A stretch of 64,000 nucleotides of DNA, taken from positions 1 to 64,000 of the forward strand of contig NZ_JAGQCD010000003.1 of NCBI RefSeq assembly GCF_024345975.1, written 5' to 3'. Numbering within the stretch: position 1 is the stretch's first letter; each line of letters begins with the position of its first letter. Of the stretch, positions 34,392 to 60,201 are shown one piece after another. This DNA comes from Cyanobium sp. Cruz-8D1 (GTDB lineage: Bacteria > Cyanobacteriota > Cyanobacteriia > PCC-6307 > Cyanobiaceae). The notes under the pieces were generated by a model, which was not told the origin of the DNA, did not search any database, and saw only the letters and a program-made list of their open reading frames with translations. Made by a program: the position numbers and the translations under genes.

Positions 34392-35015
34392 TCAGCCCCC
34401 ACCTGCAAGCTGCTGGCGCAGGGCAGCGATGGCCTTCTTCTGGGCCCGCTGCACCGACATGGCGCTGATCTGGAGCCGCTCGGCTGCAGCGCGGAGCGAC
34501 AGGCCCTCCAGGAGCGTGAGCCTCAGGGCCGTGGCCTGGGCGGCGGGCAGCTGATCCACCAACTGCTCCAGCGCCAGCTGCTGCTCGGCCTCGCTGGAGG
34601 CCAGCTCGGGCTCAGGAGAGGCCAGCTGATCGAGCAGGCACGGCTCGCCATCAGCGCTGGCATCGAGGCTGAAGTGCCCCAGCGGGCACTGGCCCTGCTC
34701 ATGCAGGCGATGGGGAATGCGGACCAGCCGCACCCGATCGCGCAGGTGATGCTGCAGAGCGCCTGAGATGCAGCGGCGCAGATAGGGAGCCGGCGGCTCG
34801 CCCGCTCTGCAGCGGGAGGCGGAGCGAACCAGGGCCTCACGGGCCACCTGGATCAGATCCTCCCGCTCCACCAGCGGGAACAGACGCCGGGCGGTGGCTG
34901 AGGCGATGGCATCAGCCAGGGGCAGGTGCTCCAGCACCAGGAGATCACGGGCCTTGAGGGCAGAACGACTAAGGGCCTGCGGCTGCTGGCAGGAAGGGGA
35001 GGCGAGGGGAGCCAT
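34392..35015 (-). CDS. Sigma-70-family RNA polymerase sigma factor
   Basis: A 207-residue protein starting MAPLASPSCQQPQALSRSAL. Region 2 is seen in DAIASATARRLFPLVEREDL then IQVAREALVRSASR and APYLRRCISGALQHHLRDRV. Region 4 with its helix-turn-helix is TALRLTLLEGLSLRAAAERL then QISAMSVQRAQKKAIAALRQ. It is a compact group-3/ECF-sized factor and could direct transcription of island genes. ATG 35015 is supported by the inverted-repeat leader B 52 bp upstream. Confidence 0.8.
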   Translation of the reverse strand: MAPLASPSCQQPQALSRSALKARDLLVLEHLPLADAIASATARRLFPLVEREDLIQVAREALVRSASRCRAGEPPAPYLRRCISGALQHHLRDRVRLVRIPHRLHEQGQCPLGHFSLDASADGEPCLLDQLASPEPELASSEAEQQLALEQLVDQLPAAQATALRLTLLEGLSLRAAAERLQISAMSVQRAQKKAIAALRQQLAGGG

Positions 35016-35063
35016 CTGGGAGACGGCGGAGAACCCCACCCCCACCGGCCGGCCGCAGCGCCG

Positions 35064-35113: not shown

Positions 35114-35267
35114 CGTGAGGACTGGCCGAGTGATGCGGTGGGTGTGTGCCGGCCCTGTGGGGCCTACTCCTCCCCCGCTGCCGGAGCCGGCATACGACCG
35201 CTCTGAACTGGGGCATCGCTGCGGCAACGGCAGCCAAGCCCATGGCTTGCGCCACAACTGGGCCCTG

Positions 35268-35459
35268 TCAAGCGATCACGGGGATGAACGGGTCGACCTC
35301 CAGCTCCTCGATCAGAGCGAGGACCGCACCCAGCAGAGGCTCCAGCTCAGCGATTACTGCCCCCTGCTCTGGAGTGCCTGGCTGGGTCATCTGACCCAGG
35401 GCATTGAGAACGGCGAGCTGAAAGAGCAGCTCAACCACGCGGTAGTGGCGCTTATCCAT
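35268..35459 (-). CDS. Small hypothetical protein
   Basis: A 63-residue acidic helical protein starting MDKRHYRVVELLFQLAVLNA and continuing LGQMTQPGTPEQGAVIAELE. ATG 35459 is favoured over an upstream in-frame start at 35492. Function unknown. Confidence 0.5.
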   Translation of the reverse strand: MDKRHYRVVELLFQLAVLNALGQMTQPGTPEQGAVIAELEPLLGAVLALIEELEVDPFIPVIA

Positions 35460-35554
35460 GGAGGCTCGGGATCTGTTGCAAAGCATTCCCACCCCCGGAC
35501 AGCCTGGTTTCTGCAGCCGACCTGGCGGATCATGTGACCAGAAGCTGATGGCTG

Positions 35555-36076
35555 ATGGGCGAGGCGGTACGAGACTGGCTACGGCTGCCGGTTGTCACCG
35601 CCGGCTCCGAATACCTGGTGATGGGGCACCTGATGCGGCGCAACATCCTCACCTACAAGGCCCCACCGGGGAATGAAGGGTATGACTTGATCTGCCTTCA
35701 TCCAGATCCACGTCACCAGCCAGGACCAACAGAGAAAGCGCAGATTCGCGTGCAGGTGAAAAGTCGCTACGCGACCGACTGCGACCGAGGGTTTCCTGTC
35801 AAAGAGAAAAGCCTGAATGCCTTCGATTACTTGATCGTCGCCTTCTTAAACATCGGAAGCTTCTACGGCAAGAACGACGGCAGCACTGGCGCTGAACAGC
35901 CAGAGTTCTACACCCTATCCCAGCAGTTCATCAGGGAGCATCACGATGCAAGCTCGACCTGGGAAAAGGTCAAGCTCAAACGCCTTCAAGAAGAGATTGA
36001 GCCGTTCAAGAATGAGAGGGGCTTTGAGCTGATCGCAATCGACCTTGGCATTCCTCTGCCAAGGAAGAATCGCTGA
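35555..36076 (+). CDS. Probable PD-(D/E)XK endonuclease next to BREX
   Basis: A 173-residue protein. [20 protein letters not shown] then [12 protein letters not shown] and [14 protein letters not shown] form the E-(x)n-D-(x)n-(E/Q)xK pattern of restriction-type nucleases (E near 20, D near 43, QVK near 67). This resembles the DUF4365-like nuclease group. It is 20 bp upstream of the HNH gene in the same direction, so the pair is a small restriction-like module beside the BREX operon. Function inferred. Confidence 0.6.
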
Positions 36077-36096
36077 TCTTGCTCGGGGAGACAGCT

Positions 36097-36753
36097 ATGA
36101 AGTTCAGGCTCATCCAATCGAACAATCGAGGACTTGTTACCCGAGCGGGAGATCGGACCTACGCTCGCAGCGGCCCAGCAAAGGGGGAGGAAGACTGGAA
36201 GCTGCCAACTCTGTTCATCTGGTCGAACAAGCCCACGCGTCTCGTGGCTCGCTGCTGGACCCGCTGGACAGGAGAGAAGCTCGAACGTGACTTCATCTAT
36301 GAGGTGACGCGCTTTCGAGACGTCATTGATCTTCAAGGTGACACCCGCTTTCACCAGTGGTGCTCTCAGCAGCTGCGGCTGCAAATGTGGGAGATGACAG
36401 AGCCAGTTGTGGATGTGAGCCAGCACTGCTGCCCTGAGCCCGAGGCCGTTCATGAGCCTAACCGCTTGAAGACGGCGCAATATCTCGAGCGAAGAAAAAC
36501 ACGGCTGAGAGCCCAGACACCTTTGCTGACAGAGGAAGAAAAAGAAATTATTTCAGATCTCTATCAACTCAGGGACTCGCTCAATCAGGCCGCAGGCCAT
36601 ATCGCCTATCACGTTGACCACATCAAGCCGCTGGCGCTCGGAGGGCAGCATCACCCAAGCAACTTGAGAGTGACAACCTCTCGCGAAAACATGACCAAAG
36701 GAGCGAAAGACTATGAGTTGCCGCCTCCTGGGCAGCCTGTGATCGCTGGCTAG
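36097..36753 (+). CDS. HNH endonuclease next to BREX
   Basis: A 218-residue protein starting MKFRLIQSNNRGLVTRAGDR. The C-terminal HNH motif is YHVDHIKPLALGGQHHPSNL then RVTTSRENMTKG: His-Val-Asp-His, N in SNL, and a final N/K. The first 120 residues are a separate, perhaps DNA- or modification-recognising, domain. The gene faces brxA and overlaps its end by four bases. It may be a BREX accessory or independent restriction gene. Confidence 0.7.
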   Translation: MKFRLIQSNNRGLVTRAGDRTYARSGPAKGEEDWKLPTLFIWSNKPTRLVARCWTRWTGEKLERDFIYEVTRFRDVIDLQGDTRFHQWCSQQLRLQMWEMTEPVVDVSQHCCPEPEAVHEPNRLKTAQYLERRKTRLRAQTPLLTEEEKEIISDLYQLRDSLNQAAGHIAYHVDHIKPLALGGQHHPSNLRVTTSRENMTKGAKDYELPPPGQPVIAG

Positions 36754-37496
36754 CTGGCTTGTGGCGACCTGAGTTCAACCATATCGCCATCGATCCCCTG
36801 ACGATGCACATCGAAGACGGACTCTTCTCTGAGGTCTGCCATGGTTAGCGAGTGAGTAAATGGGAATAGGGCCGGATGATCCAGAAGCTGGTTGGCGGGC
36901 AGGGAGTGGTGCTCATTGTCGAGCAGGAGCGCCTCGCACACCAGCAGCGCAATCTCTCTGGAGACGGACAGAGTCTTTGGGGCTCGTCCATAAACGCCTT
37001 TTGTCTCGGTGTCCGCAAGGGCTCCCCAGTCGACAAGCGAACGGATGATCCGCTGTGTGGACTTCACCAGCACTGGACGCTCGGACCATTGCGCCACCAT
37101 CCGGTTGGTGAGCTGGGCGAGGGAGAAGGTGTCCTGGAGCGTGAGCAGCCGCCCTGCCGTTCCGGCGACATCGGAGAAGATGGGATAGCAGGCGATCGCC
37201 ATGGCCCAATGCAGGGCGAGATGATCACGCGCTTTTGACGCCTGAAAGGCGGCTACTGCGCGGGTCTTCAGGGGTTCAACAGCAGGAGGGACCTTGGCCC
37301 AGATCCTGGTGAGGACCGTCATGGTCTTGCCACGATCGCTGTTGAACTTGTCCCCGCTCACCTTCCCTTCGAGGTAGTCCCACATTCCGGCCCTGACCTC
37401 TTCCAGCGAGTCGCCGGCCGCCACTCGGCTGGCCGTGGCCTCCAGCCAGTCGAGCGCCAGCCGCCGATCAAAGCCAATGGTTTTGCGCCTCGTCAT
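36750..37496 (-). CDS. brxA: BREX protein BrxA
   Basis: A 248-residue protein: RLALDWLEATASRVAAGDSL, LTRIWAKVPPAVEPLKTRAV, LHWAMAIACYPIFSDVAGTA, VKSTQRIIRSLVDWGALADT. The pattern of a short helical DNA-binding protein with the I-W-x-x-V-P and A-x-x-x-Y-P/F-F segments fits BrxA (DUF1819-like), required for BREX defence in several types. It is the last gene of the operon and overlaps pglZ by ATGA. The family call leans on context. Confidence 0.7.
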   Translation of the reverse strand: MTRRKTIGFDRRLALDWLEATASRVAAGDSLEEVRAGMWDYLEGKVSGDKFNSDRGKTMTVLTRIWAKVPPAVEPLKTRAVAAFQASKARDHLALHWAMAIACYPIFSDVAGTAGRLLTLQDTFSLAQLTNRMVAQWSERPVLVKSTQRIIRSLVDWGALADTETKGVYGRAPKTLSVSREIALLVCEALLLDNEHHSLPANQLLDHPALFPFTHSLTMADLREESVFDVHRQGIDGDMVELRSPQAS

Positions 37497-39523
37497 GCGG
37501 GCTCCTGGATGCGCACGAAGGGAACCAGAACCTCTTCCAGTGCGATGCCTCCATGGCCGAGGGTTTCCTTGCCCTGGGCGAGAAAGGCATCGACCCCGCG
37601 GGGCAGCAACACGGAATAGTCAGCTGGCAGTCCGGGACCAGGCCACAGGAGAGCGCTGGGGAGAGCCTGCTGCACCTGCGCCCGCAGCACCTCGTCGCGG
37701 AACACCCAGGCCCGCTCCCCTTTCTCTTCGGGGACGGTGCCCACGTTGGGACGACCGATCCCCTTGGCAGCAACGTTGCCGTGATCTGCGGTGACGTACA
37801 CGGTGAAGCCCTGCTCCAGCAGTGCATCGATCAAGGCGCGGAAGGCACCCTGTTGGCTCCACTGCCGCACCTGGGCATGCAACCCACCCAGACCGGTGAC
37901 AACGCCGTGGAGCATTTCATCGACCTTGCCGACAACGATGCCCAGCGCCCGGCAGCTTGAGCGAGATGCGGCTGCCTTGACCTTTTCCAGCAGCTCGCTG
38001 TCCGGCTCCTGTGACCCTTGCCTGACGTAGGCCACAGCGGGACCCTGCAGACCCTGCTCTGCCCAGAAGCGCTCCCAGTGCTTGGGCTCCTTGTCGGTCG
38101 TGCCAATGCTCTGCGGGAAGTACATCGGCGGCTCCGCCGCGAAGATCGTCTGCCGGGAGACGGAGGTGATCGTGGGCACCCAGGCCCAGCAGACGCTCTC
38201 CTTGAGATCGAGCCCACCCAGGGAGTCCCGCAGCAGCAGCCACTGGTCAAGAGCGAGACCATCGACAACCACCAGGGCGAGTCGCTTGGTGTCACCATCC
38301 CGCTGGTGGCCCAGGAAGTGCGCGACCTTGTCGAGGGTGACGGGACGGGGGATAGGCGGCAGCGACGACAACGCGCTGTAGCGCTGGAGCATCCAGTCCC
38401 CGAAGCGCTCCTCCAGGGCCAGCTGCAGACGAGCGAGCTGGGAGCTGGTCTGCGGGCTCAGGGAGCCACTGAGCTCCGTTTGCAGCACCTGGGCTTCTGC
38501 CCAGCGAAGGGCGAACAGCTCCCAGTCTTCGTGGGTTGCAGTAGCGCCTGGAAGTGCCTCCTCCAACAGCGGCAGAAGACGCTGCAGCCGGAGAGCTGCG
38601 TTCTCCTCCTGTTTGCCCACCACACCGAGGCGCATCCAGCCCGTGGGCACCGCGTCGGCAGCAATCGCTGTGGTGGGCTCCAGCAGGCCCTCGGCAAAGA
38701 GGTTGTCGATGAAGACCCGGATGTCGTCGTGGTCAAAGGGCAGCAGCTCGGGCCCGGGGAGCTGCGGAGCCGGCAGCTCACGCCCAGGGACAACCGGATA
38801 CCCCTTGGACTGGAGAAAGAGGGGCCAGCGCTCCTGCAGGAAGGAGAAGAAGGCAGCCCGGTTGGGCAGCAGGCGCTCCAGGGGCCACTCCCGCCATTGC
38901 TTTTGGAGGCAGAGCTGCTCCAGCAGGCGCTGATCGAGCAGCGGCGGCAGTTGTTGCTGGCGGAGATGGCGCCGGAGCAGAACACGGAGCAGGTCAGCCG
39001 GCTGCTGGATCTGGCCAGGCACCACTCCAAAGAGTTCGTTGAGGAGGAAGTCCTTGGTGGCATTCGCCCCCAGCTGACCGGGGTTCGCCCGCTGCAGGGC
39101 CACACTCAGCGCATCGAACTGGCTGGGCTCAAGCTCAGAGAGAACGTTGGGGTCGAGACTGGGAAACAGGCTCGGCAGGCTGAAGCTGAACTCGCGCTGG
39201 GTGGCTCGGGCCTCTGAGAGCAGGTCGTAGGGGAGAACGGTGCGGGTCGAGGCCTCGCCGCCGTTCACGACAACGACATGGAGCGACTCTCCTGCCTCCC
39301 AGCGCGGCCGGCAGCGATGCTCAAACAGGTAGCGAAAGGCGACGGGGTCGTCGTAGGCCAGCAGCTCATAACCCCGCTCGGCCAGGAGCGAGCGGAGGAC
39401 AGGTTCGGCGAACAGCTGGTCGGGATCGTTGACCACGGTGAGCCGACTGGCGGTGGCGCTCTCGCTGGTGAAGCACTCCAGTAGCGGCTGGCGCCAACTC
39501 GCCGCAGGGTCCGGGTTTGCCAT
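37493..39523 (-). CDS. pglZ: BREX protein PglZ (alkaline-phosphatase fold)
   Basis: A 676-residue protein with the PglZ domain: metal-binding VVVDGLALDQW (about residues 417-428) and TADHGNVAAKGIG (about 580-592). The N-terminal 380 residues are helical. PglZ proteins are part of the BREX core and are thought to act as metal-dependent phosphodiesterases or assembly factors. It overlaps brxA (ATGA) and brxHII (one base), so the three genes are coupled. No frameshift is seen. Confidence 0.85.
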   Translation of the reverse strand: MANPDPAASWRQPLLECFTSESATASRLTVVNDPDQLFAEPVLRSLLAERGYELLAYDDPVAFRYLFEHRCRPRWEAGESLHVVVVNGGEASTRTVLPYDLLSEARATQREFSFSLPSLFPSLDPNVLSELEPSQFDALSVALQRANPGQLGANATKDFLLNELFGVVPGQIQQPADLLRVLLRRHLRQQQLPPLLDQRLLEQLCLQKQWREWPLERLLPNRAAFFSFLQERWPLFLQSKGYPVVPGRELPAPQLPGPELLPFDHDDIRVFIDNLFAEGLLEPTTAIAADAVPTGWMRLGVVGKQEENAALRLQRLLPLLEEALPGATATHEDWELFALRWAEAQVLQTELSGSLSPQTSSQLARLQLALEERFGDWMLQRYSALSSLPPIPRPVTLDKVAHFLGHQRDGDTKRLALVVVDGLALDQWLLLRDSLGGLDLKESVCWAWVPTITSVSRQTIFAAEPPMYFPQSIGTTDKEPKHWERFWAEQGLQGPAVAYVRQGSQEPDSELLEKVKAAASRSSCRALGIVVGKVDEMLHGVVTGLGGLHAQVRQWSQQGAFRALIDALLEQGFTVYVTADHGNVAAKGIGRPNVGTVPEEKGERAWVFRDEVLRAQVQQALPSALLWPGPGLPADYSVLLPRGVDAFLAQGKETLGHGGIALEEVLVPFVRIQEPA

Positions 39524-42348
39524 CAGGCTGAAGCGGGTGCCAGGGACACCAGCTGCAGCAGCGTGAGCGAGGGCAGGGTTTCCTGGCGCCGCTGGAACTC
39601 CTGCCGCCCCTGCTGCTCCTCCTGCTGCAGCTGGGCGCGGCGGAAGTCGCGAACCTGGGGCAGTCCCAGCTGCTCGATCGCGCGCTGCCGGGCCGAGAAG
39701 GCCAGCTCCTGCTTGCGGCGCTCGCGCTCCAGCTTCTGCTGGTGTTTGGCCTGGAGCTCATCGAAGAGCGGCCTGCCCTGCTGCTGGGCCTGCTGGTGAC
39801 TGCGGTCGTAGGCCTGAGCTGCCTCTGCAGGCGAGAGCTGAGCCTCTGCCAGGAGCTGCAGCCCACCTTCGAGGCTGATCAGCCGCTCCCAGATCAGGCG
39901 GGCCGTGGGCTCCAGCAGCTTGCCCTCGCTGGAGAGGAAGAGCGGCAGCATGCGTTGGCTGCGGCCCTCGCTGGTTTGCACAGCGACCCGCCAGAGCGAC
40001 CAGATCCCCGACACCTTGCCGGCGAGTTCGGGAAGGTGCAACACCGGCACGGTCATGCCCGGGGCCCTGGGGGGCAAGGCTGCCGTGAGGGCGCGCAGCC
40101 TCGGCTCCTCGAGGCTGAGGTGGACCAGACCTGCCTCTTTGGCGCTCTGCCGGCTGAAGGTGGCCCTGAGGTCGCGGTGGCCATCGGGCCAGTGCAGATC
40201 CAGGCCACCAGCAGGGTTGGGCCGCACCTGCCCACCGGCCTCGGCCTGGGTCTGTAGCCAGGAGAGGGTCATGCGCTCGGTCCAGAAGGGCATCAGATGG
40301 CCGGCCACGCGCTGGGCGGCCTGGGGATCGAGCTCCTCGGAGCTGGAGAGCAGGGAGGCCCCCTCATGGGCAGACAGGGCCCGGGCGCGGATCGCCTCGG
40401 CGAGCGCCGCTGCCCGCGCTTCCGCCTCTTCTGGCGTCAGAACGGCGTTGACATAGAGCTGCTGGAAGTCGAGACCGTTTTCTTCCGAATCGAGCACATC
40501 GGAGAGCTTGTCGACGCCGAACTCCTGCAGGATCCGCTCCAGCTTTTCCTCCAGCACCTCACGCACCCGCAGCTCGACGGTGTCTTCCAGAGCAAAGTTG
40601 AGAGCCCGCACGATGTGTGTCTGGCCGATGCGATCCACCCGACCGATGCGCTGCTCCAGCTTCATCGGATTCCAGGGCAGGTCGTAGTTGATGATCACGT
40701 GGCAGAACTGCAGGTTCAGACCTTCGCCGCCGGCGTCGGTGGAGATCAGGATCTGGGCCTCGTTGGCGAAGGCCCGCTGGGCGCTCTTGCGCTCCTCCAG
40801 GTTCATGGAGCCGTTGAGCACCACGACCGGATAACCACGCTGCTCCAACACCTCCGCCAGCATCTGCTGGGTGGGCACGAACTCGGTGAACAGCAGCACC
40901 TTGAGGGCTGGGTCGTTCTCGTCTCGCTGCAGCTGCTGAATCGTGTCGAGCAGAGCCTGGGCTTTGACGTCGAGACCCCGGGCCTCACAGCGGCGGGCGG
41001 CGGAGAGCAGTAGCTCCACCTCGGCCCGTTCGTTCTTGAGCTCCTTGAGGCGGCTGTTCAGCAGCGTTTCGAGTTGCTCCTGCCCCTCCAGCTCAGCCCA
41101 GTCCTCGCCCACGTCTTCCCCAAACAGCGTGAGCTGGCCGGTGGGCAGCTCCAGCACCTGCAGGCGCCGCTCCAGGGCGGTGCGTATGGCAGCGGTACTG
41201 GAGGTGACCAGCCGCTGCATCAGGATCATCAGGAAGCCAACGGCGGGCTGCTTGTCACGCAGGGCTTGGTTGTAGCCCTCGCGCACGTACTCGGTGACGG
41301 CGTCGTAGAGGACCCGCTGCTCCAGCCGGGCGCTGTCCCAGGCGACGGAGACGATCTGGGTGTGACGCGGCTGAAACAGGGGCTCTCCCTTGTCGTTGAT
41401 GGCCCGGCGCTTTTCGGTGCGGATCACGTAAGGGGCGACGTTCTCCCGGGTGACCGAGCTGTCGTCGGGGAGGGCATCGGGATCGAGGAAGCCGAGCAGA
41501 CGGCGGAAGGCATCGGTCTTCCCTTGATGCGGGGTGGCGGAGAGGAGCAGCAGGTAGGGAGAGGCCTGGGCGAGCCCTTCACCGAGTCGGAAGCGGGCCA
41601 CAGTTTCTGTGGAGCCGCCGAGGCGATGGGCCTCGTCGATCACCACCAGATCCCAGCCGGCGTTGATCAGGTCGTCGAAACGCTCGCGGTTGTAGCGGGC
41701 CACCTGCTCCGCACTCCAGCCGCGGCGAGAGTCCATCGGCTTGACCGAATCAAGGGTGCAGACCACCTGGTTGTGCTGCTTCCAGAGGTTTTCTTCGGGG
41801 CCGACACCGAGCAGCTGGCGCCAAGCGCCGAAGTTGCCGGGCTGGACGAGGTGAAAGGTTTCATTGAAGTGGGTGTCGAGCTCGCTGACCCACTGGCTGA
41901 CCAGACCGGCAGGAGCCACCACGAGAAACCGCTTGGCCAGGCCGCGGACCTTGAGCTCACGAATGATCAGGCCCGCCTCAATCGTTTTGCCCAGGCCAAC
42001 CTCATCGGCGAGGAGATAGCGGACCCGATCTCCTGCCATGGCGCGCTGGAGCGCCTGGAGCTGGTGCGGTAGGGGGATGACGGAACCCTCCAGTGGTGCG
42101 ACCAGGGCGTCGTGCTCAAAGGCATCGAGGATGCGAGCCGCAGCGGCCACAAAGCTGAGCTGCTCGAGGCTGGTGGGGCTGGCCTGCTCCAGGGTCTGCA
42201 GCCGCGCAACAGGGAGACGGACCACAGCGTCTCGGCGGGACAGCCAGATCTGGGCTGTGGGGATGCCCCAGAGGTCTTCCACGGCGATCACCCGGCAGGG
42301 CTCGCCGTGATCCAGCGAGTGACACCAGTCGCCGGCCGCGAAGCTCAT
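39523..42348 (-). CDS. brxHII: BREX helicase BrxHII (Snf2/HepA-like)
   Basis: A 941-residue helicase. DEVGLGKTIEAGLI (motif I, about residue 112), VIDEAHRLGG (motif II, about 236), SATPHQGKTDAF (motif III), and the C-terminal motor with GEGLNLQFCHVIINYDLPWN and RIGRVDRIGQTH (about 560-570). A long helical C-terminal part follows. This Snf2-type translocase defines type 3 and type 5 BREX. It overlaps pglX by ATGA. Confidence 0.85.
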   Translation of the reverse strand: MSFAAGDWCHSLDHGEPCRVIAVEDLWGIPTAQIWLSRRDAVVRLPVARLQTLEQASPTSLEQLSFVAAAARILDAFEHDALVAPLEGSVIPLPHQLQALQRAMAGDRVRYLLADEVGLGKTIEAGLIIRELKVRGLAKRFLVVAPAGLVSQWVSELDTHFNETFHLVQPGNFGAWRQLLGVGPEENLWKQHNQVVCTLDSVKPMDSRRGWSAEQVARYNRERFDDLINAGWDLVVIDEAHRLGGSTETVARFRLGEGLAQASPYLLLLSATPHQGKTDAFRRLLGFLDPDALPDDSSVTRENVAPYVIRTEKRRAINDKGEPLFQPRHTQIVSVAWDSARLEQRVLYDAVTEYVREGYNQALRDKQPAVGFLMILMQRLVTSSTAAIRTALERRLQVLELPTGQLTLFGEDVGEDWAELEGQEQLETLLNSRLKELKNERAEVELLLSAARRCEARGLDVKAQALLDTIQQLQRDENDPALKVLLFTEFVPTQQMLAEVLEQRGYPVVVLNGSMNLEERKSAQRAFANEAQILISTDAGGEGLNLQFCHVIINYDLPWNPMKLEQRIGRVDRIGQTHIVRALNFALEDTVELRVREVLEEKLERILQEFGVDKLSDVLDSEENGLDFQQLYVNAVLTPEEAEARAAALAEAIRARALSAHEGASLLSSSEELDPQAAQRVAGHLMPFWTERMTLSWLQTQAEAGGQVRPNPAGGLDLHWPDGHRDLRATFSRQSAKEAGLVHLSLEEPRLRALTAALPPRAPGMTVPVLHLPELAGKVSGIWSLWRVAVQTSEGRSQRMLPLFLSSEGKLLEPTARLIWERLISLEGGLQLLAEAQLSPAEAAQAYDRSHQQAQQQGRPLFDELQAKHQQKLERERRKQELAFSARQRAIEQLGLPQVRDFRRAQLQQEEQQGRQEFQRRQETLPSLTLLQLVSLAPASA

Positions 42349-45152
42349 GCGTCGTCGCCCAACCGGGTCTGGGCGTTGTCGATGTACATGAGGAGCTTCT
42401 CGTCCTCCTGCAGCACCGCCTCTGGGAGCTTGGCCGCCACCTTGACGATGGTGGCGTAATCCCGCTCCTGCCAGCAGGCCTTGAAGCCGGCCCGCACGGC
42501 TTCCGTGCGGAACTGCTTGATGCGGCGCTGACTGCTCTCTTTGATTTCTTCGAACTCCTTGAGCAGGGCGCGTTCGCGGATCTGATCGAGATCGGCCTGC
42601 TTGTTGGGATCTGGAACGTACCAGCGGTCTCGGGCCTTCTCGATGAGTCTGGAATCTTCTTTGTCGAGATTCCGGTGATCTTTGAAGTTGGTGGAGAGAT
42701 AGCTGTGGATCTGGCTCGGCACTGGGCCGCGTCCGTCGTAATGCAGAAAGTTCTGCTCAAGGATCACCTTGAGCTCTACGGTCTGCTCGTGCTTGGCCCA
42801 GGCCTGAAGCTCGCGCATGAATTGCGGTTGCAGATCCTGGAAGCTCTGCGGCTTGTCCTGCAGCTGCTGCCGGATCCACTGAATCGCACTGTGCTCATCG
42901 TTGACAAAGAAGCTGAGCTGGCGCAGCTGTGTAGCGGTGGTGCGTTTGCGGTCGTATTCCGTGACCTGATCTGGCAGGAAGTACATGCCATCTCTTTCAG
43001 GGAAGCGTTGCTGAAGACCCTGCAGAAACTCCGGACCAGAAAGAGGCACGCTGATGCCGTGCTGGACATGGAAGGCGATCATGCGATCCAGCAACATTTG
43101 AGGCGTTCGCTCAACCACAAGTTCGACTTCATTGGAACGACCAACGAACACTGGAACGTTATGAAGATGCTCGCGTACGAAGGCCCAAGCCCCATCAGCA
43201 GATGATTGTCCGATCTCGAAGCGTTGCCGCAGAGCTTCAGTAGGCTTGTAGGCGGATATCACCAGATCCTGCTTCACTGCAGAGCTTGTGACCTGCCGAT
43301 AGGATCCTTGTTGCTTGTCAAGCGTCCGCACGTCGGCAACTACAAACCCTGCTGCACCCATTGCCTCCTGAATGGCTCGCCAAATCCCGTTACTCGAGTT
43401 ACTAAAAACAACTGTCATCCAGCGACCTGGCTTCAGGACCCTGCCGTACTCCTCAAAGCAGCGACGCATAAGCGCTTGATAATCCGGCACTTTCTTTTGC
43501 TTGGCTTGGTCAACAATTGCTTCGCTGCCAGCAAAGGTAGTCACTCCATGCCAGGATTCAACAAGAAAGTTGAGATCCGCGTAGTATATATTTTCCCCGA
43601 ACGGTGGATCCGTAAAGATATAGTCTACTGAATTATTCTTGATGCCGATTGCGGCACAGGTTCCCGTTTGAACCATGGCTGCCCCTGAAGCAACTGGAGT
43701 CGGGGCAAAGCATTTAACAATTCGATCAACCTTGGTATTTCGCTTATGCTCATCAGCAAGTATGTACCATGGGCTTAATTCGGCGGTCTGCGACGCGACA
43801 TAATACACCCCGGTGAGACTTTGCCCAACCTGTGAATATCCTGTAGGCCTGTATCGGTTTAGCACCGACATCGACCATATCGCCTGTTCGGCAAACCACA
43901 GAAGCGCCCTGCGAGTACCTAGGTCCCTGACCTCATTCGCCTTTCTCCAAACCGCAGCCAAAGAATGAATGGCACGAGGGAGAAATAGGTGATGAGTTCT
44001 GGTAAACCCCTTCGGCTGCAATCGCGAACCGTGATACATCTCCCCAATTGGGAAAGGCAGGCTAGCAACATCAGGTGGATATGCTAGGGCATCAATTCTC
44101 GCGAGAATACCAAGATCGGCCTCGGTTACTGGCCTCTCACAAGTTCTCGCGCCAATATTATAGTTTATAAATACAGGCTTGAGGGCGATCCTCTTCCAAG
44201 TCTCTTTTGTGACGGGATCAACGCGAGTCTCGAAAGTTCGCTCGAGCTTGTCCTTGTTAAGATGAGAGCTGCAATGCGGACAAGGAAAGGAGTCCCGCGT
44301 CTTTTTGGTAGCCAGGTCGAGAGCTTCTTCGATAAAGTTTACCTCTCCAGCGCACTCAGGACATGTAAAGACCTCGCTCCACACCGTGAAGTTAATCCTT
44401 CCCTTGGCATTGCTTTCCGAGTGAGGCACGTCATACATCCAGCCAAGATCAGAATCAACCTCATCCAGAATCCGTTGAGCTTCTCTCTCAAAAGCTGCCG
44501 GATCAAAGGGAAGATTGTACCCGGCCGAGATGAAAGATGCTGCCGGTCCAAGGTCATTTAGGACTACTCGTCGTACGCCCCATTCGGGCGGTTCATGGCC
44601 TTCCACTTGCCAAAGCGCCTCAAGTTCCTGGCGGTACGCCAGGGGGGCAGTCCCACACCACTGAGCCGCAAGACCTGTCATCCCTGATCCACAAAAACCA
44701 TCCAGGACGATGTCCCCAGGCTTGGTGTAGTGCAAGATCGAGGGGACGATCGCTAAGTGGGGAACCTTGGTGTGATAACCGTGTGCCTTGTAGAGCTGAT
44801 TAGTTTTCCCGACACTCACATCAACGGCGAATGGCTCCCGCTCATAGACCTCATCCGGGTCATATGGCTTGCCATTGCAGCGGACAAAGTCTTCCAGGAA
44901 GGGATTTGGGCAGGCGGTGTAATACGGCGGATCCGACATCCGCAGGATTGCTTCATCGCTGCCTTGAGGGAAGCCCGGTGTTTTACGAAACTCCGGGTCC
45001 TGCAGCTTGTCCTTCAGAAGCGCCAGGAAGTGTTCCCGCCGCGCCTGATCGTTCTCGAAGGTGAGGCCGAGGCATTCCACCGGACCGCTTTGCCCTCTCT
45101 CTTGCTGAAGCTCCAGGGTGCCTTGCTGTTCCTGTTCTGTGGTGCTTGGCAT
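42345..45152 (-). CDS. pglX: BREX DNA methyltransferase PglXI (adenine-type)
   Basis: A 935-residue methyltransferase. Motif IV-like SDPPYYTACPNPF is at about 73-85, motif I DGFCGSGMTG at about 151-160, zinc-type cysteines CPEC and CPHC near 270-300, and a second TDPPFGENIYYADLN near 515-530. This double-DPPY, zinc-containing layout is the DUF1156-type PglXI of type 3 BREX, which marks host DNA. The middle of the gene (about 43,200-44,900) is visibly AT-richer than both ends, a sign of recombination in the central part. Confidence 0.85.
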   Translation of the reverse strand: MPSTTEQEQQGTLELQQERGQSGPVECLGLTFENDQARREHFLALLKDKLQDPEFRKTPGFPQGSDEAILRMSDPPYYTACPNPFLEDFVRCNGKPYDPDEVYEREPFAVDVSVGKTNQLYKAHGYHTKVPHLAIVPSILHYTKPGDIVLDGFCGSGMTGLAAQWCGTAPLAYRQELEALWQVEGHEPPEWGVRRVVLNDLGPAASFISAGYNLPFDPAAFEREAQRILDEVDSDLGWMYDVPHSESNAKGRINFTVWSEVFTCPECAGEVNFIEEALDLATKKTRDSFPCPHCSSHLNKDKLERTFETRVDPVTKETWKRIALKPVFINYNIGARTCERPVTEADLGILARIDALAYPPDVASLPFPIGEMYHGSRLQPKGFTRTHHLFLPRAIHSLAAVWRKANEVRDLGTRRALLWFAEQAIWSMSVLNRYRPTGYSQVGQSLTGVYYVASQTAELSPWYILADEHKRNTKVDRIVKCFAPTPVASGAAMVQTGTCAAIGIKNNSVDYIFTDPPFGENIYYADLNFLVESWHGVTTFAGSEAIVDQAKQKKVPDYQALMRRCFEEYGRVLKPGRWMTVVFSNSSNGIWRAIQEAMGAAGFVVADVRTLDKQQGSYRQVTSSAVKQDLVISAYKPTEALRQRFEIGQSSADGAWAFVREHLHNVPVFVGRSNEVELVVERTPQMLLDRMIAFHVQHGISVPLSGPEFLQGLQQRFPERDGMYFLPDQVTEYDRKRTTATQLRQLSFFVNDEHSAIQWIRQQLQDKPQSFQDLQPQFMRELQAWAKHEQTVELKVILEQNFLHYDGRGPVPSQIHSYLSTNFKDHRNLDKEDSRLIEKARDRWYVPDPNKQADLDQIRERALLKEFEEIKESSQRRIKQFRTEAVRAGFKACWQERDYATIVKVAAKLPEAVLQEDEKLLMYIDNAQTRLGDDA

Positions 45153-45387
45153 GGCTGCAGTGTTGAAAGCGGTGGGTTGTCGGCTTGGCTGGATGACCAG
45201 AGGCGTGTGTTCAGACGTGGCCTTGAGCTGGTGAAGTGCCTCGTCGCAGGTGGCTCATTGGCGCTGCTCCACTTGCTCGGTGACATGCGCGGTCACATGG
45301 CCGGTGACTTGCTCGGTCACTCAGGCTGAGGGCCCAGCCTGCTTTGCAGCTGCCCTGGCTGATATGTGTAGTCGGTACTGGCATCAC
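45153..45387. other. Gap inside BREX operon with 12-bp CGGTNAC repeats
   Basis: This is the only sizeable gap inside the operon. At about 45,269-45,320 four 12-bp units alternate CGGTGAC and CGGTCAC. On the minus strand they can be read as a 21-codon frame (GTG at 45320 to a stop at 45255) giving VTEQVTGHVTAHVTEQVEQR plus one residue. It could be a regulatory repeat or a mini-peptide. Confidence 0.4.
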
Positions 45388-48300
45388 CTACTCCAGAACC
45401 AGACGGACCTTGGCCTTGTCCTTGCCCTTGGTGCGCTCGTTCAGGTAGTCGGCAAAACGGTCCTTCAGCTCGTCGAGGGTGCAGGGCAGCCCGCCCGAGG
45501 TCAGAGCCGAGCGCAGTTGGTCCTCTGTGAGCACCACCTTCTCCAGGCCCTGGAGCACCTCCTGAAGGGCCTTCAGTAGGGCCGGTTCAATCGGCTCCGG
45601 TAGTTCGCGGCTCGCGATAAGTTGCTTCAACGCTGCCTTACCGCTGCTGTCGGTGACGAGCTGCACGTTGTCGCTCACCGTTGGGTCTTCCAGGTTGCTG
45701 AGCAGCCGCTGGCACCAGTCGGCCCCCAGGCTGTCGAGCCGTTCATCCAGTGAGCTGATGAGCTGCGTTGGCTTGGTGGTCGCCGCCGCGGGCTCTTCCG
45801 CTGGGCGGAACTGGCAGTGTGGGCAGACGGGGCTTTGCTCCAGATCGGGACGTCCCAGGCTGAAGCAGGTCTTGAGACCGAACAACCTGTTCTGGAAGTC
45901 CTGCAGCTGTTGGGCGGGCATCATCTCGACCTTGGCCAGCTGCTGCAGCTGCTTCAGGCGCGGGTCCTGGGTGAGCCGCACCTTGCGCTGATCATCGGCT
46001 TGGTTCAGGCGAGCCTTGGCGTGACGGTCGAGGTAGTTGTCCTGATAGGTGGCTTTCAGCTGGGCCAGGCTCTGGCCGAGCTGGCGTTGGAAGTTGGCAT
46101 CGGCGCGGTGCTTGGGGCTGGTGATCTTGGCCAGAAACTCACGTTTCTGGACGGCAACACCCTGAACCCAGGCGTCATCAGAAGGGAGCACCGCCTCAGC
46201 CGTGCCCAGGTAAGCAGTCAGCGGGCCCACATGCTGCACAAGGCTGAGCAGCTCACCGACCTCGCGGACCAAGGCCAACGGCTGCTTCTGGCCGGTGATG
46301 ACCTCAGCGGTATGCGGGAAGTTCTTCAGCTTGCCGGCGGAGTTGAAGGGCTGCAGTGACTCGAGAAACTTCTGGAGGTTCTGCAGCGCCGCCAGCCACT
46401 CGCCCTGTTCCTGTTCGGAGAGCAGGGGCCTCCCCCAAAGGGCGAGATCGGCCAGTTGCCCTTGAGCAGTGACGACCTTTTCCACCAAGGAGGCCACCGT
46501 GCTCTGCAGCTGGGCAACCGCCTCGTCCCGCTTCGCTGCGTTGGCGATCAGGCCGGGCGGCAGGTTGATCAGCTCGAACAGCTCCTTGAGCGGCCCCAGG
46601 GGCAGATCCCGGGGGCGCTCCACATGCTTGAACTGCAGCAGATCTTTGACGCTGGTCTTGCCAAACAGGTCGATCTCACTGGCATCGATCTTCTTGCCGG
46701 TGATGCTCAGGACCAGGTCACCGCTGTGCACCAGGGCGGCGAGTACCACGACCAGGAACTCCGGCTCCAGCCGGAACCGCGTCCAGTACTCAATTCCCGC
46801 CTCCTCCCCGACCAGCTCTGAACGGTTCAGAACTTGGCCTTCACCTTTGTCGGTGAGCTGTTTCAGCGCCTGCTTGGCGTAGCGCGAATCCCTGGGGCGG
46901 AGCTGGTCACCATCCAGCAGCTCCAAGGCATCGAGCACCGAGGCCCCGAGCTTGCCCTTCACACTGCCCGCGATCCAGCGCAAAGCGTCCTGGGCCGCTT
47001 GCTCCCGGTTGTCGCGGGTGATCGTGGTGGTGAACACCGGGTAATCCGGGCACTGGTTCTCGAAGCAGGCAGAGAGACAGGAGGCAGCGGCTGCATCCAC
47101 CGCATCCTTCACGCCGCCTCGATCGCCTGAGCGGGCCAGACCGCCCTTGAGGCGTTCCCCCAGCAGCTGCGCAGTGCCCTGGTGGGTGACCTCACAGCAG
47201 CTGGACAGGTTCTGCTGCAACCACTGCGTGAGGGAACGCAGCTGCTGCATCGCCTTGTCCTCGTAGATTTTCTTGTTGCTGCCCGAGGCGGTGAGCGCCA
47301 TCTCGCGCGCCCCGGCGTAGAGCTTCACCGCGGAATGGAAGCTGGCGTCATCGCCAGGCTTCAGCCGGAAGAACACTTCATCGGCCTTCCGCTCGTCCTT
47401 GAAGTACGGCGGCTCGTAGGGCTGCAGGAAGTAGAGATAGAAATCCCGGGGCGGCTGAGCAGTGGAGCGCTCATTCGGCGCCCCAAAGAACAAGTAGCCG
47501 CTGCGGCCGGCGCGGTGCTCCCGCCACTCCAGTTCGTGCTCCCAGATGCGATAGCCGCTGACATAAGCCGGCGCGTCCGGTTCTTCGAGAATCACTCGGC
47601 GCAGGGCATCAAAGTAGTATTCATCGAGCTTGCTGTCATCAAGGGTTTCGGCTCTCTTGTCAATCAGCGAGTCGAAGTCGATGTCTTTCTTGAGATCAAG
47701 ATAGTATTGACCATTCTCTGGATTAAACGACAGGAATTGGCCGCTGACCGTTTTCAGGATCTCGCGCAGAACGGTTTCAACGGTTGACTTGAGGAAGTCT
47801 GCGTCCTGTTCCGGAAGTGGAAGCAGCAGGCAGAGATCATCGCGGAGCTCTTCTGCCGTAGCACCCATCGGTGTGAAGATGTCACCGGTTGTCAGCCGAT
47901 GAACGGAGAGGGCATGAATGATCCTCAGGGCAGCTGGCCTGTACTGCGGCCTTGTGAAGGCCTGCTGAATGCGTGCCTCCAGCACGTCACTTTTATCGAT
48001 GACGTCGCGGATGTCCGGGACTGAGCGGAAGGAGGGGTTGTCCTTCAGCGTCTGCCAGTAGGAATCGTAGGCGATCAACCCTGGATCATCACCAGGTACC
48101 TCCTCATCCAAAAGAGAGCGGATGGCCGCACTGAGGGTTTTGAGGACTTCCCGCTTTTCGGCCGCGTAGACCCGCTCAAAGGTGTCGAGATAAGCGGGAT
48201 GAACCGGGTAGAGGCGGACGAATTCCTCCAGCCGCTCATTCATCGTGGCGTACAGCTGGGTAAAGCCCTGCAAGTGCTCACGCACCAAGGCCTGCTGTTT

Positions 48301-49089
48301 GCTGTCCTTCTTCAGTATGCGCTGTGCCACGACGTAGGCCACGTCTTCACGAGCGATGCGCATCTGCTCAAAGCGATCCTTGACGCGCCGCAAGCTGTCG
48401 GCAGCAAACTGGAAGTGGGGATTGTCGAACAGGCTTTCCTGGACCCCGCCGATGAAGCGGAAGCGTGAACCCTTGCAGAACTCCCCGATGGCACGCAGGA
48501 AGTTGAGGTTCCGCATCAGCTCTTGCTCTCGGTTCGAGCGCAGGTAGTCGAGCAGCTCGTCGAGAACAAACAACAGGCCCTTGTCAGGGAAGACCTTGGT
48601 GAACTCCGCCATCATCGCGGCGAAGACCTCCTTGTGGTTTTTGACCTGATCCTCGGGTGGGATCTCGAAATGGACCCCGCGTTCCGCCAATGCTTCCTGA
48701 AGGCTCTCCAGAACAAATTGTCGGAGCGACATTGAGGAGTTGATCTCGGCGCGGATGACGACAAACTGTCCCGCAATCTTCTCCGCCGCCTTGGCGACAG
48801 CAGGGTTTGTCAGCTTCTCTGCCAGTTCAGCCTTCTCGGCTACCGCGGAGATCACCGCTAACTGGTGCGACTTACCTGTTCCGTAGTTGCCGACAACCAG
48901 GAGACCTTTGTTATCCGCAGGCTCCTGGAACTGAAGCTGCTGGAAGATCACACTCTCCAGCTGCTCACCCATGCGATCAGAGATCACAAAGGTCTGCACC
49001 AGCCTGAGCGCTTGGTCATTGCGTTCAGCTTCGTTGAGCTGAACAACCGTTTCGATCGGATCAAACTGAATCAGGTCGGAATATTTCAT
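45388..49089 (-). CDS. brxC: BREX ATPase BrxC (DUF6079/PglY-like)
   Basis: A 1,233-residue AAA+ ATPase. The start MKYSDLIQFDPIETVVQLNE is 5 bp after the brxF stop (an upstream in-frame GTG at 49119 would overlap brxF). Walker A is VGNYGTGKSHQL (about 66-77), Walker B LLFVLDELLDYL, followed by sensor-like RFRFIGGVQESLFD. The later half is helical with a CPHC-type zinc pair near the end (VCPHCQFRPAEEPAA). BrxC is the large core ATPase of BREX. Intact. Confidence 0.9.
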   Translation of the reverse strand: MKYSDLIQFDPIETVVQLNEAERNDQALRLVQTFVISDRMGEQLESVIFQQLQFQEPADNKGLLVVGNYGTGKSHQLAVISAVAEKAELAEKLTNPAVAKAAEKIAGQFVVIRAEINSSMSLRQFVLESLQEALAERGVHFEIPPEDQVKNHKEVFAAMMAEFTKVFPDKGLLFVLDELLDYLRSNREQELMRNLNFLRAIGEFCKGSRFRFIGGVQESLFDNPHFQFAADSLRRVKDRFEQMRIAREDVAYVVAQRILKKDSKQQALVREHLQGFTQLYATMNERLEEFVRLYPVHPAYLDTFERVYAAEKREVLKTLSAAIRSLLDEEVPGDDPGLIAYDSYWQTLKDNPSFRSVPDIRDVIDKSDVLEARIQQAFTRPQYRPAALRIIHALSVHRLTTGDIFTPMGATAEELRDDLCLLLPLPEQDADFLKSTVETVLREILKTVSGQFLSFNPENGQYYLDLKKDIDFDSLIDKRAETLDDSKLDEYYFDALRRVILEEPDAPAYVSGYRIWEHELEWREHRAGRSGYLFFGAPNERSTAQPPRDFYLYFLQPYEPPYFKDERKADEVFFRLKPGDDASFHSAVKLYAGAREMALTASGSNKKIYEDKAMQQLRSLTQWLQQNLSSCCEVTHQGTAQLLGERLKGGLARSGDRGGVKDAVDAAAASCLSACFENQCPDYPVFTTTITRDNREQAAQDALRWIAGSVKGKLGASVLDALELLDGDQLRPRDSRYAKQALKQLTDKGEGQVLNRSELVGEEAGIEYWTRFRLEPEFLVVVLAALVHSGDLVLSITGKKIDASEIDLFGKTSVKDLLQFKHVERPRDLPLGPLKELFELINLPPGLIANAAKRDEAVAQLQSTVASLVEKVVTAQGQLADLALWGRPLLSEQEQGEWLAALQNLQKFLESLQPFNSAGKLKNFPHTAEVITGQKQPLALVREVGELLSLVQHVGPLTAYLGTAEAVLPSDDAWVQGVAVQKREFLAKITSPKHRADANFQRQLGQSLAQLKATYQDNYLDRHAKARLNQADDQRKVRLTQDPRLKQLQQLAKVEMMPAQQLQDFQNRLFGLKTCFSLGRPDLEQSPVCPHCQFRPAEEPAAATTKPTQLISSLDERLDSLGADWCQRLLSNLEDPTVSDNVQLVTDSSGKAALKQLIASRELPEPIEPALLKALQEVLQGLEKVVLTEDQLRSALTSGGLPCTLDELKDRFADYLNERTKGKDKAKVRLVLE

Positions 49090-49093
49090 GTCT

Positions 49094-49582
49094 TCATGCT
49101 CCTGCGAGGCAGTGACCATTGGCGGTCACGATCTGAACATCCTTGACATCGAGGCGTCGATACTCTGGGTGGTCAGGCGAGCCGTAGATGAGTTTCCCAG
49201 CGACGACCTCCCCTTGCCAGGCTGCGATGACGGTGTGATTCCTAGATGCTCGTTGGAGCGCCAGCATCGGCTCTTGCTGCAGGGCAGGGTGAAAGAGCAG
49301 GCCAATATTGTCCAGCATGGTTACCGTTTGATTGCCCTGCTCTTCGATTAAGTCCCTGACAATGTCTGCTGTGCGCAGTCGTCTTTGTTTGCTTGTGAGA
49401 TCCAGCAGGCGCTCGGAAAGAACTTTGTTGAGGTTCAGCAGGCTCCAACCCCTGGCTACTTGGAGCTCGTTGAAAGCGATGGTTTTTCCACTCCCTGGGG
49501 GACCGGCTACCACGACCAAGCGGTAGAAGCTCTTTGCTGCCAGCTCAGCCTGCTCAGCGATGGCACGGGCCAGGTCTCTCAT
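49094..49582 (-). CDS. brxF: BREX small ATPase BrxF
   Basis: A 162-residue P-loop protein: VVVAGPPGSGKTIAFNEL (about residues 24-41), later TVTMLDNIGLLFHPAL (Walker B-like) and ASRNHTVIAAWQGEVVAG (sensor). BrxF marks type 3 BREX and is the first gene of the operon. The start ATG 49582 has an AT-poor upstream region; the promoter should lie in 49583-49708 but no clear -10/-35 pair is seen. Confidence 0.8.
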   Translation of the reverse strand: MRDLARAIAEQAELAAKSFYRLVVVAGPPGSGKTIAFNELQVARGWSLLNLNKVLSERLLDLTSKQRRLRTADIVRDLIEEQGNQTVTMLDNIGLLFHPALQQEPMLALQRASRNHTVIAAWQGEVVAGKLIYGSPDHPEYRRLDVKDVQIVTANGHCLAGA

Positions 49583-49708
49583 GGGCAGGGTGGTACAGCC
49601 GATCTAGCTGGGGCTCGGGATGAGCGGCTCTTGGTGTAGGCCGCAGCACCCAGTCTGCCGCCAGGGCAGCGCAGGCGCAGCCAGGCTTCTCAAGGGTCTG
49701 CCTGCCAA

Positions 49709-49743
49709 GGCCAAAACTATGCAGCCTGTGCATTGTTTTGGCC
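49709..49743 (-). terminator. Long nested hairpin between TPR gene and BREX operon
   Basis: GGCCAAAAC...GTTTTGGCC (9 bp) encloses ATGCA-GCCTG-TGCAT, giving a nearly uninterrupted 15-bp stem. It begins exactly at the stop codon of the TPR gene read on the minus strand. It likely ends that transcript and so separates it from brxF; an operator role for BREX is an alternative. Confidence 0.6.
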
Positions 49744-50840
49744 TACGAGCTCTGCAACCGCACCGCCTCCTCGTACTCCGCCCCGATCCCCAGCCCTGAG
49801 TCCTCATCGGGCATCAGCCGCTTCATCCCCACGTGGATCAGACAGGCCAGGGCCAGATCGCTCCAGCTGCCGGGGAGGGTCTTGAGGCTGCGGGAGGTGC
49901 CGGGTTCGTTGATCTGCAGACCCCCCTGGCCCACGGCCCCGACCTCGCTGAGCACCGCCAGGAAGCGCTGCTGATCCATCCCCTCAAACAGCCGCAGGGC
50001 CTGGAGGCAGTAGCTCACGGCGTCCTGCCGCAGCCCATCGGGCTGGTCAGCCCGCAGGTCGCGTCTGGCGATGCTGCTGCGCAGGTCCTTGGCTTTGTTG
50101 GCCAGCTCGCCATAGGGCTGGGCCTCGATCACCCGCAGCAGCAACCGATCGGCCTCGTCGCGGTGCTCGTCTGGATCCAGCTCCAGCAAGGCCTGGGCCA
50201 GGTTGAAGGTGGCGATCAGATCGTCCGGTGCCGCCTTCAGTGCCTGGCGGAAGCGCTCCACCGCTGCCGCATAGGCCCCGGCGATCACTAGCAGGCTGCC
50301 GAGGCTGCGGAGGGCAAAGCTGTTGCCTGGCTCCACCTCGATCGCTGCCTCCAGGGCCTGGCGGGCTTCTGCCTTGTCACCCAGCCGCATGGCGGCCAGT
50401 GCCAGGGCCACCTGGGCATTGGCCTGGGCGTGGGCATCGGGGGCATTGGCGACCACCGCCCGGCGCAGCAGCAGACGGGCCTCCTCCAGCCGGCCTTCTT
50501 CGCTGGCGAGGACGCCCAGGTTGTAAAGGGCCTCCGGGTGTTCGGGCTGCAGCTGGAGCAGGGTTTCCAGCAGCGGCCGGGCCTCATCGAACCGGCGCTG
50601 CTGCAGGAGCGGGCCGATGGTGGCCATCGCCGGTGCTTCAGGCGCTGCCGGCTCCCAGGCCACCTCGATGCGGCCGGCGGCGAACACCACCGACAGCTGA
50701 CCGCCCATCGACGCATACGACTTCTTGAAGTAGTCGGTCACCGCCCGGTGGAAGGCCTCGCTGCCAGGCGTGCGGCTGCCCTCGGGCAGCAGGGAGGCAT
50801 CAAAGCTGGCCTCTTCGATCGAGAACGCCGTGCCTTCCAT
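49743..50840 (-). CDS. Tetratricopeptide-repeat protein
   Basis: A 365-residue protein. After a 90-residue N-terminal part (FHRAVTDYFKKSYASMGGQL) there are several TPR units: LLQQRRFDEARPLLETLLQL, EALYNLGVLASEEGRLEEAR, ALRSLGSLLVIAGAYAAAVE, LIATFNLAQALLELDPDEH. The C-terminus is not TPR (SWSDLALACLIHVGMKRLMP). ATG 50840 overlaps the preceding stop. TPRs mediate protein assembly. The partner gene at 50840-51604 is the obvious candidate. Confidence 0.75.
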   Translation of the reverse strand: MEGTAFSIEEASFDASLLPEGSRTPGSEAFHRAVTDYFKKSYASMGGQLSVVFAAGRIEVAWEPAAPEAPAMATIGPLLQQRRFDEARPLLETLLQLQPEHPEALYNLGVLASEEGRLEEARLLLRRAVVANAPDAHAQANAQVALALAAMRLGDKAEARQALEAAIEVEPGNSFALRSLGSLLVIAGAYAAAVERFRQALKAAPDDLIATFNLAQALLELDPDEHRDEADRLLLRVIEAQPYGELANKAKDLRSSIARRDLRADQPDGLRQDAVSYCLQALRLFEGMDQQRFLAVLSEVGAVGQGGLQINEPGTSRSLKTLPGSWSDLALACLIHVGMKRLMPDEDSGLGIGAEYEEAVRLQSS

Positions 50841-51604
50841 CAGGGCGTCTTCCAGACGTACCAACGCGAGAGGCCCAGCTTCTCGGCCCAGCCATCAACG
50901 ATCTCCCGGTCCGGATCGGCAGTGGTGGGCTCGGCGCGGGTGATGGCGATCAGCTCCTTGGCCAGGGCCTCAAACCCTGCTGCCTGGTACGGGATCGCCA
51001 GGGGAGGGATACCCACCAGCTCGGCGGCCTGGAAGGCATAGGCGGCGTTCATCGCCCGGCTGGCCTTCACCACATCGGCGGGGCTCATTTTGTCGACCTC
51101 GGCATTGAGGCAGGGCACATTGCCCTGCACCTGGCTCTGCAGCACCGCCGCCTGCAGGCCCCGCAGTTCCGGCACCTGCTCGAACAGCCAGCGATCAGCC
51201 CACAACCCTGGGCCCATCGAGCGCAGTTGCACCATCAGCCCGTCGTAGAAGCGCAGCCCTGCCTGCCGGGCCTGGGCCAGGCCAAGGCGGCCCTTGAACA
51301 GCTTCTCCACCTGCGCGACCACCTTCTCCCTGGCCTCGCGCTTCTCGGTGAGGTTCACCCGCTGCTCGGGGGGCACCTGCACGATCCGCAGCAGCAGGGC
51401 GGCCTCAAAGGCCACGTGGTAGCTGCTTGCCTCGTCGGCATCGCGATAGGCGATCACGTGCGCCTGGTGCTCTGGCGTCGCCGGCCGCAGGGTGGCCAGG
51501 GTGCTGAGGTCGCTCTGCTGGGCCACTGCCACCGGCAGTCCGCTGGTCTCCTCCACCTGCTTGAGCAGACGGTTCACAGCCGGCAGGAGCGCATGGGCTG
51601 GCAT
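50840..51604 (-). CDS. Hypothetical partner of the TPR protein
   Basis: A 254-residue protein: MPAHALLPAVNRLLKQVEET, HVIAYRDADEASSYHVAFEA, SMGPGLWADRWLFEQVPELR. A segment ASSYHVAFEAALLLRIVQVP suggests a helical enzyme-like core, but no active-site motif is clear. It is translationally coupled to the TPR gene (1-base overlap), so they likely form a complex. Unknown family. Confidence 0.6.
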   Translation of the reverse strand: MPAHALLPAVNRLLKQVEETSGLPVAVAQQSDLSTLATLRPATPEHQAHVIAYRDADEASSYHVAFEAALLLRIVQVPPEQRVNLTEKREAREKVVAQVEKLFKGRLGLAQARQAGLRFYDGLMVQLRSMGPGLWADRWLFEQVPELRGLQAAVLQSQVQGNVPCLNAEVDKMSPADVVKASRAMNAAYAFQAAELVGIPPLAIPYQAAGFEALAKELIAITRAEPTTADPDREIVDGWAEKLGLSRWYVWKTP

Positions 51605-51670
51605 CGCCGGGCCGAGGGGAGAGCAGGGCCCCCACGGTATCGGCGCCAGCGGGGCAGGGCCCCAGACCCC

Positions 51671-52081: not shown

Positions 52082-52123
52082 CCGTGATCCGGTCAGGATG
52101 GGTCACGCCCTCCAGCGAGCACC

Positions 52124-53355: not shown

Positions 53356-53387
53356 GCTTCAGAGAGTGGCAGGCGTCTGAGACGGGA

Positions 53388-55278: not shown

Positions 55279-55327
55279 GGCTGGGCTGGCGAACGACACC
55301 GCCGTTGAGCCCCGGCGCCGCCAGCGC

Positions 55328-60190: not shown

Positions 60191-60201
60191 GCTGTGACTA
60201 G

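Follow-up and report, generated by a model that had tools for sequence, protein, structure and literature searches.

The first 64,000 nucleotides of contig NZ_JAGQCD010000003.1 from Cyanobium sp. Cruz-8D1, henceforth the window, belong to a 211-kb contig (C32) of a 3.97-Mb genome (G000) and harbor six genes of a type 3 bacteriophage exclusion (BREX) system. The explanation we favor, with a probability of roughly 0.85, is that these genes form a complete operon carried as exchangeable cargo by an integrated temperate phage, with self-marking of phage DNA and swapping of defense cassettes as proposed features. Type 3 BREX is already known; the novelty lies in its occupying a prophage cargo slot shared with other large systems. 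The locus would provide a direct case of phages carrying large innate immune systems from one cyanobacterium to another.

The BREX operon and the element that encloses it

The six genes are intact and lie on the minus strand in the order brxF-brxC-pglXI-brxHII-pglZ-brxA. This is the order given for type 3 BREX, a system described by Goldfarb et al. (2015), in the passage of PMC10799925 that quotes it, and an earlier reading of the locus, made from the sequence only, had proposed it together with the absence of broken frames. The first gene, brxF (49094–49582), encodes a P-loop protein of 162 amino acids (aa) that matches the PADLOC BrxF model (133 bits, 2.5e-39) and reaches 145 bits with the BREX-3-specific NCBIfam model NF033453, whose cut-off is 50. 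It is followed by brxC/pglY (45388–49119), which encodes a 1243-aa ATPase (PADLOC, 1742 bits; Pfam DUF6079 over its full length), and by pglXI (42345–45152), which encodes a 935-aa adenine methyltransferase (PADLOC, 1295 bits). The product of brxHII (39523–42348) is a 941-aa SNF2-type helicase with a PADLOC BrxH score of 1321 bits; that of pglZ (37493–39523) is a 676-aa phosphatase (PADLOC, 717 bits) that scores 646 bits with the BREX-3 model NF033449 of NCBIfam, above the cut-off of 250. The last gene, brxA (36750–37496), encodes 248 aa (PADLOC, 200 bits, 9.3e-60). All six proteins hence match PADLOC BREX models, and PglZ and BrxF exceed the cut-offs specific for type 3. Catalytic motifs are conserved, with Walker A in BrxC (GNYGTGKS77) and BrxF (GPPGSGKT27), DEAH238 and QRIGR566 in BrxHII, and the S-adenosylmethionine-binding and catalytic motifs FCGSG153 and DPPF515 in PglXI.

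Chance cannot account for six families arranged in the published order, and both the curated models and the gene order identify the block as a type 3 BREX operon that is complete and has no broken gene; it may be presumed to have anti-phage activity. The sequence-only reading had described spacings or overlaps of mostly 1–5 bp, and was nearly correct; this is true of overlaps of 4, 1 and 4 bp, but not of the 235-bp gap between pglXI and brxC nor of the 26-bp overlap between brxC and brxF. The gap before pglXI distinguishes the operon from type 3 BREX as described, as do its location inside a temperate phage bounded by attachment sites and the strong allele dependence of the center of pglXI.

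The proposal that the operon is prophage-borne is borne out by the ends of the element. The right attachment site, attR, is made of the 3' 44 nt of a tRNA-Pro(TGG) gene (attR at 60202–60245, minus strand; gene at 60201–60275). The left end is found on an IMG/VR contig, IMGVR_UViG_3300028044_001505, which is identical to window positions 1–36753 and extends 13,084 bp further left. On this contig an exact copy of the 44-nt tRNA-Pro 3' end lies beside an integrase gene, 7,276 bp left of window position 1. Because of the location of these two copies, the element is bounded by identical 44-bp repeats, measures about 67.5 kb and contains the BREX operon. Still further left, the contig has a second Rad52/Gp157 arm, the end of which is 88.7% identical to that of the element's own arm; it thus appears that another element is integrated next to this one in tandem. 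Many genomes of the genus contain further copies of 41–46 nt of the tRNA-Pro 3' end, and some contain more than one; this 3' end is an integration hotspot, with possible tandem arrays.

The gene order of the element is integrase, primase, terminase, portal, capsid, tail, BREX and Rad52. The terminase, portal and capsid genes that had been noticed in the island were recovered on the plus strand as the terminase large subunit (TerL, 6778–8478; phrog_38, 1.6e-76), the portal protein (11393–12988; phrog_145, 3.5e-32), a head scaffolding protein (14448–15614; phrog_206, 5e-15) and the major head protein (18491–19408; phrog_212, 4.8e-67), so that packaging and head functions are both represented. 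Phage genes resume on the other side of BREX, near the right end, with a Rad52/22-family recombinase (56799–57767, minus strand; Pfam PF04098, 1.6e-41) and a Gp157-like phage protein (57853–58473, minus strand; Pfam PF05565, 1.6e-23). Homologous integrase genes lie left of the window, in Synechococcus sp. HJ21-Hayes and in the sister loci G005, G002 and G047, and the G047 copy matches phrog_1 (1.2e-23).

The operon is found at the same position in HJ21-Hayes, where BrxC is 96% identical. A single contig of that strain holds the whole element, which spans 60,714 bp, is bounded by identical 47-bp repeats at tRNA-Gly(CCC) and includes integrase, phage genes, BREX and Rad52/Gp157; direct repeats at a tRNA gene thus enclose an element with an integrase in both cases. 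Vulcanococcus limneticus LL has the same arrangement, seen in fragments: the same Rad52/Gp157 right arm is directly preceded by brxF and the start of brxC, and the tetratricopeptide repeat (TPR) module described below is mostly deleted. These near-identical loci agree with the picocyanobacterial host that had been suggested.

TerL is matched by 1511 phage records, and the nearest are Synechococcus phages S-CRES1-3 and S-CBS2 (36–41% identity); however, none of these encodes a relative of the present BrxC or PglZ, nor was such a relative detectable in any of 50,697 phage records. A scan of viral contigs with BrxC alone gave no match, while an alignment of 12 sequences retrieved seven contigs with BrxC relatives 29–52% identical. 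These seven were left uncounted: their BREX genes mostly lie near a contig end, where prophage cargo and trimming are indistinguishable.

The cargo slot in related prophages

When the window was compared by blastn with two sister prophages, one in G005 (IMGVR_UViG_3300031787_000096) and one on contig C41 of G047, the alignments ran up to position 35155 and resumed at 49649 or 49712. The interval in between (35156–49648) is a variable cargo slot. In G005 it contains genes for an SNF2-PLD protein, a DUF4391 protein, a methylase with DPPY and FAGSG motifs and Res III; in G047, a type III methylase (Mod III), Res III and a DrmD-like helicase. HMA-like genes occupy the slot in G002 and G012, and a second prophage of the Cruz-8D1 genome itself (G000:C21) has a MADS-like set (mad6, 421 bits; mad2, 296 bits). 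Three of these prophages have mapped ends: 45-bp repeats at tRNA-Arg in G005 (66,701 bp), 70-bp repeats at tRNA-Gly in G047 (62,384 bp) and 44-bp repeats at tRNA-Pro in G002 (57,757 bp). Together with HJ21-Hayes, these loci show different systems at one conserved prophage position. Since sister prophages hold other large methylation-based defenses in the same slot, it seems that immune systems are interchangeable among these temperate phages and travel with them from host to host, and such collinear prophages, differing mainly in their immune cassette, constitute a natural comparison set.

The sequence-only reading had considered that its interpretation would suffer if the block were absent from the island in related strains and had boundaries of its own. 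The absence is real, as sister prophages without BREX exist, but another defense system fills the slot and no separate boundaries are found: no integrase, transposase or att repeat specific to the BREX block was seen around it.

The left edge of the slot is formed by a backbone gene of 217 aa (34392–35045, minus strand), 75–90% identical in G000:C21, G012 and G000:C48. Inside the slot, next to BREX, are a plus-strand gene of 173 aa without family match (35555–36076), which lies within the block shared with HJ21-Hayes, and an endonuclease VII/HNH-like gene (36079–36753, plus strand; phrog_1035, 6e-11), convergent with brxA with a 4-bp overlap and with homologues in other prophages of the genus. 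At the right edge, upstream of brxF and on the same strand, stands a gene for a 373-aa TPR protein (49743–50864; Pfam TPR) whose close homologues adjoin other defense cargo; relatives outside the genus were set aside as ordinary TPR repeats. It is accompanied by a 254-aa gene (50840–51604, minus strand), 88–97% identical in sister loci and with no Pfam or credible PDB match, and by a 325-aa gene (52378–53355, plus strand; phrog_6160, 7e-6). The latter ends with a motif, RRPHxRRGHWH...RxxW, similar to the C-terminus of the anti-CRISPR AcrVA2 (PDB 7ci1, E=0.015, residues 286–322 against 279–316). This is a weak lead only, and the AlphaFold model of the protein (pLDDT, the model confidence score, 28) is unusable and leaves it as such. 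The module also adjoins BREX-6 PglZ and BrxHI genes (G018:C36) and type I restriction-modification (RM) genes (G042:C17, G047:C65), loci in which the phage context is seen partly or not at all. A sequence of about 370 bp at 55061–55436, possibly a small gene, recurs near the slot in several prophages; G000:C48 has two copies.

Slots of this kind have a precedent in the P2/P4 prophage and satellite hotspots (Rousset et al. 2022, PMC9122126), where a fixed position in related prophages also receives varied anti-phage systems. The systems there are short, and according to that study neither BREX nor type I RM occurs among them, on account of capsid size; the present slot, in contrast, accommodates multi-gene methyltransferase-bearing systems of roughly 8–17 kb in prophages of 58–67 kb. 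In Candidatus Manganitrophus, a mobile island whose ends were mapped has been reported to carry type 3 BREX (Prophage Tracer, PMC8682789); that island, however, has conjugation genes and lacks phage genes. No prior description of a prophage slot for large modification-dependent systems was found in the open-licence literature, and earlier reports may exist elsewhere.

Proposed mechanism and competing explanations

Comparison with HJ21-Hayes suggests how the cassettes may travel. Positions 35573–53357 form one collinear block with 86.6% identity, whereas the structural genes to its left can be aligned in pieces only, mostly at 65–76%. Because of this difference, and because module proteins are 88–98% identical across loci with unrelated cargo, the simplest explanation is that cassettes are moved by homologous recombination through the flanks of the slot.

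We thus propose the following sequence of events. In a lysogen, BrxC, BrxF, PglXI, BrxHII, PglZ and BrxA would methylate an asymmetric adenine motif in the chromosome and the prophage alike, and incoming phages without the methyl mark would be blocked. Upon induction, the DNA of the prophage would already be marked, so that its virions could gain entry to other cells that share its BREX allele, and competitor phages would be excluded. Related phages could then swap whole defense cassettes by homologous recombination via near-identical flanks, with the gene at 34392–35045 on one side and the TPR/254-aa/325-aa module on the other, and changes in the middle of PglXI would alter the motif recognized. 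Self-marking is envisaged by analogy with lambda: phage released by induction of BREX+ lysogens bears the methylation and overcomes the system (PMC6326788). If it operates here, self-marking by a phage-borne methyltransferase becomes testable as competition between temperate phages.

The last step would be consistent with the variability of PglXI. Among three cyanobacterial alleles, windowed identity is 36–88% for residues 151–550 (36–66% for much of the stretch) and 72–100% elsewhere, while BrxC is 88–100% identical among the same alleles. The variable stretch spans between motif I (153) and motif IV (515); the lowest identities among 31 homologues are found in windows 301–400 and 451–500. 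G+C content is also lower in the middle of the gene (0.48–0.54) than at its ends (about 0.57–0.63). Residues 151–550, approximately, are likely to be a target-recognition region swapped between lineages. The AlphaFold model of PglXI is good overall (pLDDT 82), and Foldseek returned only weak, generic methyltransferase-fold matches for it (E about 1e-3).

A stricter version of the proposal holds that a family of picocyanobacterial temperate phages has a slot dedicated to exchange, which admits large methyltransferase-bearing systems only (BREX-3, BREX-6, types I and III RM, HMA-like, MADS-like), on the grounds that only these allow a phage to mark its own packaged genome. It adds that one cell can stack several such prophages and that a leader module, made of 136-aa, 254-aa and TPR genes usually located upstream of the cargo and on the same strand, drives or tunes the cargo. 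We regard this version as tentative and somewhat more doubtful than probable.

One competing explanation is that BREX belongs to a chromosomal defense island of the host that merely abuts the prophage, so that the phage ends at the stop codon of the endonuclease gene (36753). Indeed, the provirus record IMGVR_UViG_3300028044_001505 starts exactly at that base. Trimming by IMG/VR is, however, consistent with a boundary called by gene content, and genes of phage families are found again between BREX and attR (60202). The same right arm lies within att repeats in the sister prophages of G005 and G047, and the HJ21-Hayes repeats, which enclose integrase, BREX and Rad52/Gp157 alike, contradict the host-island explanation, which we therefore reject as very improbable. 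That the record ends at the brxA boundary illustrates a risk of provirus calling, in which cargo of this kind can be discarded as host sequence. The chance that the operon is instead a DISARM or another SNF2-helicase system is practically nil. BrxHII does match DrmD models (298 bits in PADLOC, 334 bits in NCBIfam), but the latter score is below the cut-off of 610 and far from the 1321 bits obtained with BrxH, and the other five genes match BREX models rather than DrmA, DrmB or DrmC; DISARM, a better match to which the sequence-only reading had named as refuting its own assignment, fits worse and was discarded.

Whether the phage is alive is a separate matter. The prophage might be dead or domesticated, a remnant that persists because of its defense cargo and can no longer excise or form particles. 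The genome has about ten TerL loci, which points to many remnants, and att fragments of tRNA-Pro are dispersed through the genus. The integrase, both att repeats and the open frames of TerL, portal, scaffold, head and tail fiber argue otherwise, as do near-relatives with 89–95% identical TerL on several IMG/VR contigs. We consider the remnant explanation unlikely, albeit with an appreciable chance. That no open reading frame of tape-measure length was seen between 11 and 36 kb of the window also speaks for a remnant, and is one of several points that count against cargo of a temperate phage as we propose it: a tail fiber is present, but neither a tape measure nor a lysis gene was recognized. 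In addition, C32 starts at window position 1, so the left att is known from an IMG/VR contig whose origin in the same strain is unproven. Sister loci were chosen by matches to TerL, BrxC, the endonuclease or the TPR gene, which is not a systematic census, and cargo calls derive from PADLOC and Pfam models of large genes only.

Other prophage genes and neighboring loci

The left part of the window encodes a helicase (117–1601, minus strand; Pfam ResIII/Helicase_C) and a 904-aa primase-like protein (1865–4579, plus strand; Pfam Zn_Ribbon_Prim). The collagen-like tail fiber is encoded at 22679–23923 (plus strand; phrog_819, 7e-39).

The ten or so TerL loci of the 3.97-Mb genome belong to the same family and represent either unusual polylysogeny or many remnants. 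Three TerL paralogues, on C27, C78 and C60 (loci L238, L239 and L240), contain inserts of about 350 aa with intein ends (C...LAGLIDSDG...THN/S), placed exactly between GK and S of Walker A. Another prophage of this genome encodes an ArdC-like anti-restriction protein (ArdcN plus metallopeptidase; L192:4547–5482) near a UvrD/Gabija-like helicase.

Just right of attR, the window contains a group II intron D1-D4 core (61238–61354) and an insertion sequence transposase gene (61973–62956). To the right of attR in G047:C41, a TOTE-type archaeo-eukaryotic primase and helicase protein (L187:428–2692) adjoins the prophage.

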